This document shows positions 1-1,720 of a DNA stretch of 64,000 nucleotides, in pieces (position 1 is the first letter of the stretch; every line of letters starts with the position of its first letter). This stretch comes from Candidatus Bathyarchaeota archaeon (GTDB taxonomy: Archaea; Thermoproteota; Bathyarchaeia; Bathyarchaeales; DTEX01): contig JANXEA010000007.1 in the NCBI GenBank assembly GCA_025059045.1, positions 1-64,000 on the forward strand, given 5' to 3'. Made by a program: the position numbers and the translations under genes. The notes under the pieces are model-generated. The model worked only from the letters and a program-made list of their open reading frames with translations, did no database searches and was not told the DNA's origin.

Positions 1-44
1 TTCAAGCTGCAAATTCTGAAAATAGTTTTCAAAGGCCATAACGT

Positions 45-887
45 TTAGCACCGCCGCGGTTTATTCGGCTTAATTCCATAAACGGTTATACTTACGATTA
101 AGTTGGCATATTCTTTTGCATCTCGATTTGAAATGCAAAATCCTTCCATGAGAGCCTTTGTTGTTGGATCGTCAATTATAAGGTCAGTTGGAAACTGTGA
201 CTCCCTTAATATTTTTACATTTCTGAAACCTGCGCTTTTGATCAGCTCAAGATATTCATTATTCAATACTGCTCCGGAGATGCAGCCAACATACGCTTGC
301 TCGTTTTCCCTTATCGCCTTGGGCAACTCTTTCAGCAAGACGATGTCAGAAATTATTAGCCTGCCGCCAGGCTTTAAAACCCTAAAAGCTTCTTCAAATA
401 TTCGCTTTTTGTTTGGTGAAAGATTAATGACGCAATTCGAAATTATCACGTCAACGGAGTTATCTGCAACGGGGAGATTTTCTATTTCTCCAAGTCTAAA
501 TTCCACGTTTCTATAATTACCATTCCTAGCGGCTTTCCTTGCCCTATCGATCATTTCAGGCGTCATATCGATACCGATAACTCTCCCTTTTTCGCCAACC
601 TTTTTCGCAGCTAAAAAACAATCAAAGCCGCTTCCTGAGCCTAAGTCAAGCACAGTTTCTCCTTCTTTTAAAGATGCTAAGGCAACCGGATTTCCACAAC
701 CTAGACTGAAAACCTCATCGGAGAGAGATTTTAATTCTTCTTCAACATAACCGGGCTTCTTGTAACCTTCTTCTATATCTACGGGCCCTTTGCAACATGA
801 GCTTGAACAACAGCTACTTTTCTTTTTCGCTATTTCAGCGTAACTTTTCCTTATCATCTCTTTTAATTCAACTTCATCCATGGTCAT
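45..887 (-). CDS. arsM: Arsenite S-adenosylmethionine methyltransferase (ArsM-type)
   Basis: This class I SAM-dependent methyltransferase of 280 residues most likely methylates trivalent arsenic in the cytoplasm. A cysteine-rich N-terminal stretch (SSCCSSSCC, about residues 24-32) precedes the SAM-binding motif LDLGSGSGFD (about 81-90). The conserved cysteines expected in ArsM are visible in SNCVINLSP and YVGCISGA. The length suits archaeal ArsM proteins. ATG at 887 is used; a second ATG lies two codons downstream at 881. It follows, on the same strand and 5 bp away, a small HgcC-like AbrB gene, so the two probably form one transcript. The family is clear; metal specificity is inferred from the cysteines. 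Confidence 0.88.
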   Translation of the reverse strand: MTMDEVELKEMIRKSYAEIAKKKSSCCSSSCCKGPVDIEEGYKKPGYVEEELKSLSDEVFSLGCGNPVALASLKEGETVLDLGSGSGFDCFLAAKKVGEKGRVIGIDMTPEMIDRARKAARNGNYRNVEFRLGEIENLPVADNSVDVIISNCVINLSPNKKRIFEEAFRVLKPGGRLIISDIVLLKELPKAIRENEQAYVGCISGAVLNNEYLELIKSAGFRNVKILRESQFPTDLIIDDPTTKALMEGFCISNRDAKEYANLIVSITVYGIKPNKPRRC

Positions 888-892
888 TATCC

Positions 893-1132
893 CTAACCTA
901 AAACTTCTTTAAGAATCGGGCCTAGGAAACTTTTAACGGAGCTTCCAAGATTTTCAGCCTACACCATGATAAGGCAACACGCCTCATCACCGCTATGACA
1001 ACTAATAATCGCCAATTTATCATTAGGCCTAAGCTTAATTTTCTCTCTAACATCTTTCGGAAGAACTATCTGACCCTTCGAATCAAGTGTAACAACAGCA
1101 TCAATCCCGCAACATTTCACTTTATCGTTCAA
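893..1132 (-). CDS. HgcC-like AbrB/SpoVT-fold protein interrupted by an in-frame TAG
   Basis: A TTG start at 1132 opens a frame reading MNDKVKCCGIDAVVTLDSKG, followed by an AbrB swapped-hairpin motif (GQIVLPKDVREKI) and a paired cysteine EACCLIMV. A TAG at 959-961 (codon 58) interrupts it. The same frame continues with AENLGSSVKSFLGPILKEVL to a second TAG at 893-895. From memory, AbrB relatives annotated as HgcAB-associated proteins have exactly such a tail, with a lysine where the TAG sits. The full protein would be 79 residues; the short form of 57 keeps the AbrB domain. It lies directly upstream of arsM. The amber could be a nonsense mutation (AAG to TAG), a sequencing error, or a recoded codon. 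The stop upstream at 1136-1138 limits the start. Confidence 0.65.
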
Positions 1133-1140
1133 TGTTTAGC

Positions 1141-1720
1141 ACCGTATAAGTTTAACTTTTCCTAATATTTAGATTTTTCTGAAAATCATAAAAATTACTA
1201 CACGATTCAGATAGCAACGTCCAAATGAAAGACTGTTAGGTCAATTTAACTTTCAATTTGTCATTTTAACCTTGAATCCTTATCATCCCTGTTTCTGATG
1301 CTGAAGCGGACAGCTTCGTGCGGTATGGGCGTTTTCTTTGCGCTGCTTCCACATTTATATTAAACAACTTTCATCGCAACGAATTTTAAATCATCATAGG
1401 TTGAAGTTTTATAAGGCTGTACTTATGTCTACGCGATTACCCTTTCCTCTCATTCTCTCGAGACATGCCGAGGAGCAAACAGGCACATCCTGGATAGGTT
1501 GGATAAATGGTTTGGGTACTCCGCATCCCATACCTCTGGAAAGGCCCAGAGCTTGCAGATGAATGATGAAGTTCAATAAACACCCCGACTGAAGCTGTCC
1601 TCAGCCTCCACTTAGCACTCTCAACCCAATTTGAGCAATCATGTATGTCTTACATTCATATACGAGTGAGTATGTGGATTTAAATAGCGCGTAGAGATAG
1701 CGCACTTGAACACGAGGTAC
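1141..1720. other. Intergenic region, no supported gene
   Basis: About 580 bases separate the AbrB-like gene from tRNA-Gly. The open frames here are short and show no recognisable family. A perfect inverted repeat GAAGC...GCTTC occurs near 1302-1316. An ATGATGA followed by CTGA around 1563-1595 recalls C/D-box sRNA boxes, but the spacing does not give a convincing two-guide sRNA. Confidence 0.4.

Follow-up and report, generated by a model that had tools for sequence, protein, structure and literature searches.

A probable recent nonsense mutation in an HgcC-like AbrB gene at the head of an arsM cassette in a Bathyarchaeia-like archaeon

We found an AbrB-type gene interrupted by an in-frame amber codon close to one end of a 64,000-nucleotide stretch (hereafter the window) from the genome of an uncultured Bathyarchaeia-like archaeon. 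Very probably, this codon arose through a recent nonsense mutation of the ordinary kind (AAG to TAG, Lys58) in the gene of an HgcC-like AbrB regulator, with translation stopping there to give a 57-residue product that lacks the C-terminal helix. An amber codon lying in frame in an archaeal genome assembled from a metagenome can be resolved this far by computation: the decoding machinery, the usage of stops, the codons of homologues and what became of the surrounding cassette point to plain gene decay. In the course of events that we posit, AAG would have changed recently to TAG at codon 58 in the organism's own DNA and translation would end at the amber codon without readthrough. The product would be a bare 57-residue AbrB DNA-binding domain of reduced function, and the gene would either encode a hypomorphic regulator or have taken a first step towards its loss. 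It heads an arsenic-methylation cassette that was probably moved horizontally, in which arsM itself is intact and of which other copies are decaying.

The amber codon and its homologous column

The minus-strand frame at positions 893-1132 of the window begins with a TTG start at 1132 and reads LNDKVKCCGIDAVVTLDSKGQIVLPKDVREKIKLRPNDKLAIISCHSGDEACCLIMV*AENLGSSVKSFLGPILKEVLG* (asterisks mark the two stops), with the following parts:

962..1132, minus strand: truncated ORF of 57 codons with a TTG start, encoding a complete AbrB/MazE-type DNA-binding domain (HgcC-like, NF040962) by profile match and predicted structure
959..961, minus strand: codon 58, an in-frame TAG (amber); reads AAG in L006, the closest homologue, and AAA, AAG or AGG in all others
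896..958, minus strand: homologous tail of 21 codons after the amber codon, from the homologue alignment, with a C-terminal helix in the predicted structure
893..895, minus strand: a second TAG stop in the frame, located where family members typically end; the codon is TGG in L006 and L267 and TAA in L007

The in-frame TAG and the 21 family-like codons beyond it had been noticed in a sequence-only reading of this DNA and were confirmed here, with 20 of the 21 tail residues identical to those of L006. The same reading took the next codon for the proper end of the gene; this is indeed the family-typical end, but it was overlooked that the end codon is itself a TAG that corresponds to TGG in L006 and L267, where the frame extends slightly further. 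As an open run of 21 codons follows the stop in 32% of the predicted genes of this genome, such a run is unremarkable alone and the case for the tail rests on homology. Separate initiation of the tail was rejected because positions 896-958 have no in-frame ATG, GTG or TTG, as was a frameshift bypass of the amber codon, since the +1 frame hits a stop at most 13 codons further on and a slippery run was not observed.

Genome contigs were scanned and 61 related genomes were searched for the family, yielding 47 homologous loci, which reduce to 42 distinct ones once the sequences shared by both collections are dropped. None of these 42 has a stop at the amber column, which is instead occupied by AAA (32), AAG (8) or AGG (2), such that each homologue has lysine or arginine there, in agreement with the lysine that the sequence-only reading had given for the relatives. 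A sense codon in all 42 distinct homologues, with the AAG of L006 only one base from TAG, argues for a nonsense mutation. Counting against it, both in-frame TAGs fall on sense codons (K and W) of L006 and L267, as would also be predicted if TAG were read as sense.

Selection on the tail is not relaxed beyond the stop: its dN/dS relative to L006 is 0.066 across the 21 codons, compared to 0.20 for the head of the gene and 0.31 for arsM. On the branch leading to the window, 0-1 amino-acid changes are seen in the tail against the approximately 6 expected if it had been neutral throughout (P 0.002 to 0.016), a bound that allows neutrality for the last 49-78% of that branch. This leaves three readings, namely a recent stop, an error, or a tail to which translation still extends; of these, a recent stop agrees best with the surroundings. 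The absence of relaxed selection counts against the nonsense mutation and requires the stop to be recent. The extra stops at codons 80 and 82 were dropped as proof of relaxed selection because L007 also has a stop at codon 80, leaving the polarity ambiguous.

The main rival to the nonsense mutation is that AAG is the true codon and that TAG stems from an error in sequencing or assembly, or from a minority strain whose variant entered the consensus. It would explain both the single-base difference from L006 and a tail that remains under purifying selection without decay, and a contig end at which the assembly branches is 959 bases away, in a draft of 27 contigs. However, the exact 141-base overlaps at several contig ends are typical of short reads assembled by a de Bruijn method with k=141, in which a random read error should not survive, and the neighboring arsM frame is intact; we consider an error improbable.

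The truncated product and its family

NF040962 is the family model for the 'HgcAB-associated protein HgcC' (curated cut-off 70 bits), and the protein matches it above this cut-off both with TAG read as K (99 bits, profile positions 1-70) and in its truncated 57-residue form (73.7 bits, positions 1-51). Structure prediction for the read-through protein (mean pLDDT 86) places the last strand at residues 50-58, followed by a helix over residues 59-78. The amber codon thus falls at the boundary of the predicted AbrB fold and the C-terminal helix, such that it is predicted to remove the helix and keep the DNA-binding domain. The earlier proposal that the truncated form keeps the AbrB fold is thus borne out by both its score and the position of the stop where the predicted fold ends.

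An AbrB/PrlF-like gene upstream of or next to hgcA has been proposed as a putative regulator of hgcAB in archaea (PMC10349881), and we infer from the family name that this gene belongs to the NF040962 family. The label 'HgcC-like' from the sequence-only reading stands with respect to the family model but brings no tie to mercury methylation here: the gene does not lie beside hgcAB, the HgcA cap-helix motif was not found in the genome by a search limited to regular expressions, the downstream partner is arsM and, in further distinction from HgcC, the last helix is cut off by the amber codon. Commonly, though not invariably, the HgcC-like homologues have CC pairs close to the N-terminus and ahead of the last strand, and these might bind As(III).

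The truncated product has approximately the same length as the free-standing archaeal AbrB/SpoVT-type DNA-binding proteins (e.g., PDB 5itj; 2l66, Sso7c4) and aligns with them over nearly the whole domain; those with solved structures are 48-54 residues long and match the profile from position 6 to positions 49-54. The fold matches of our model are to the AbrB and SpoVT N-domains, with E-values that are weak (best 0.012), perhaps because a monomer model was compared with swapped dimers. This similarity in length, together with a score that stays above the NF040962 cut-off, is what would be expected of an adaptive truncation, i.e., a sub-case of a real nonsense mutation in which a short functional AbrB repressor has been selected. 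However, the free-standing proteins are naturally short and full-length, whereas here the shortness comes from a stop missing in relatives; no second case was found, and conservation of the tail extends widely across the family and includes an invariant proline. We accordingly regard selection for the short form as quite unlikely. The tail is shortened or replaced in four homologues (L030, L032, L103 and L104), and its loss may hence be tolerated in the family.

The conserved tail and the location of the stop at a domain/helix boundary, where both forms could be stable, would also suit an unaided readthrough, in which a near-cognate tRNA sometimes passes the amber codon and some full-length protein is made. 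Yet none of the homologues has a stop here, hence there is no conserved readthrough signal, and the genome as a whole has no excess of coding-like extensions after TAG (see below); this option appears slightly weaker still than an adaptive truncation. Even less likely, in our estimate, is readthrough at a useful rate without pyrrolysine machinery, whereby a bare AbrB domain and a full-length regulator would coexist and their ratio would set arsM expression.

Pyrrolysine machinery and the use of TAG as a stop

The genome containing the window is a 27-contig draft of 1.42 Mb that is 98% complete; four small contigs (10,991 bases) read as N and, like the missing 2% of the genome, lie outside the searches for pyrrolysine (Pyl) genes. 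Within this scope, PylS, PylD and PylB have no match above their cut-offs (best 52 bits versus 178, 21 versus 150 and 35 versus 348, respectively), and MttB is likewise absent above cut-off. Each of these profiles scored above its cut-off in Methanosarcina acetivorans, which served as the positive control. The 52-bit PylS match reads as the phenylalanyl-tRNA synthetase beta chain (PheT), judging by its sequence and by its location following PheS. ARAGORN, Rfam tRNA matches and a structural scan of the genome, 11 kb of which reads as N, gave no amber-decoding tRNA (CUA anticodon). Two candidate suppressor tRNAs were discarded: a poor match from the structural scan at C4:21304, and the only tRNA with a CTCTAAA string, at C10:63785-63911 (L191), the anticodon stem of which pairs as Arg-UCU. 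The latter, missed by ARAGORN, is probably a tRNA-Arg(UCU) interrupted by two introns, of which one lies in the acceptor/D-arm region. The absence of PylS, PylB, PylD and MttB above cut-off and of a detectable CUA tRNA argues for a nonsense mutation.

Among 919 genes predicted by a simple gene caller (an approximate set), 349 end in TAA, 315 in TGA and 255 in TAG, the last being approximately 28% of stops. Coding-like extensions beyond the stop are seen at comparable frequencies after TAG (7.5%), TAA (7.2%) and TGA (6.0%). The observation that TAG ends many genes here, which had been raised against pyrrolysine in the sequence-only reading, was thus upheld, and two of these genes in the window, those for dTMP kinase and CDC48, are complete to their family ends. 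The use of TAG as a common stop without an excess of coding-like extension further argues for a nonsense mutation, as does the decay of the cassette elsewhere (see below). High usage of TAG is not an absolute criterion and does not by itself exclude pyrrolysine, as the Sifarchaeia are described as encoding Pyl while making high use of UAG stops (PMC9499178); it is the missing synthetase that decides.

PylS is found above its curated cut-off in 3 of 257 genomes of the class (G131, G232 and G238; loci L287, L286 and L288, respectively). Hence, the capacity for pyrrolysine exists nearby in the class but was not found in the genome of the window. The gene shares with those of pyrrolysine-decoding archaea (PMC9499178) an in-frame TAG followed by conserved sequence; it differs in that its genome has no pyl genes above cut-off and uses TAG as a common stop, and in that the gene does not code for a methylamine methyltransferase of the Pyl type. 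With no tRNA-Pyl or PylS, PylB or PylD found in a 98%-complete genome and a sense codon in every homologue found, the outcome agrees with what the sequence-only reading had named as refuting pyrrolysine. Of its four options (nonsense mutation, sequencing error, readthrough and pyrrolysine), the last can be set aside as extremely improbable.

The arsM cassette, its transfer and its decay

The amber-bearing gene belongs to a cassette with the following features:

45..887, minus strand: intact arsM-type arsenite methyltransferase (PRK11873.1, 349.9 bits, cut-off 263; dN/dS 0.31 versus L006)
1..1220, minus strand: cassette, probably horizontally transferred, 89.4% identical to L006 (L006:2911-4132), with an unrelated upstream flank
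1..141, minus strand: contig end of 141 nt, identical both to the end of C27 and to the start of C18 (C18:1-141, L208), which runs on into a second methyltransferase gene

arsM lies directly downstream of the amber-bearing gene and, across the family, is directly downstream on the same strand in 34 of the 42 distinct homologous loci (L006-L040, L092-L104). From this position and the fold, we predict that the HgcC-like AbrB protein regulates arsM. A family named for hgcAB is the upstream partner of arsM in most loci found, which is possibly worth more than the amber finding, and its name may mislead annotation. An attempt to detect a weakened Shine-Dalgarno sequence upstream of arsM was abandoned, as the energies failed to separate the copies.

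L006 is a Methanomethylicia record, and the RpoB proteins of its genome and that of the window are only 59% identical. Given the 89.4% identity of the cassettes and their differing upstream flanks, the cassette, which consists of the AbrB gene, arsM and probably the second methyltransferase, was probably transferred horizontally between archaeal phyla; a mis-binned contig in either genome could also produce this pattern. No close copies of the cassette were found in viral contigs or plasmids.

Comparison of the copies suggests that the hgcC-arsM pair both moves between archaeal phyla and decays repeatedly. The second methyltransferase of L006 carries a frameshift. In L267 (G196, about 1501-2425), which comes from a related genome, both arsM and the second methyltransferase are frameshifted and hgcC has lost its first 55 codons; the remaining codons 56-79, with the lysine codon still present, are joined to unrelated sequence. 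Against this background of repeated decay, the amber codon is best regarded as a further example.

In the genome of the window itself, the end of the cassette occurs a second time as a remnant, spread across C27, C18 and C6. On C27 (C27:48450-48593, L242), only the last 144 bases of arsM precede the same C18 start, and C6:1-245 (L202) is a piece of the second methyltransferase with an internal deletion. A short frame before the C27 junction has an integrase-like look and was set aside, as Pfam gave it no support. The 144-base 3' remnant of arsM on C27 lies slightly downstream of a tRNA-Ile gene.
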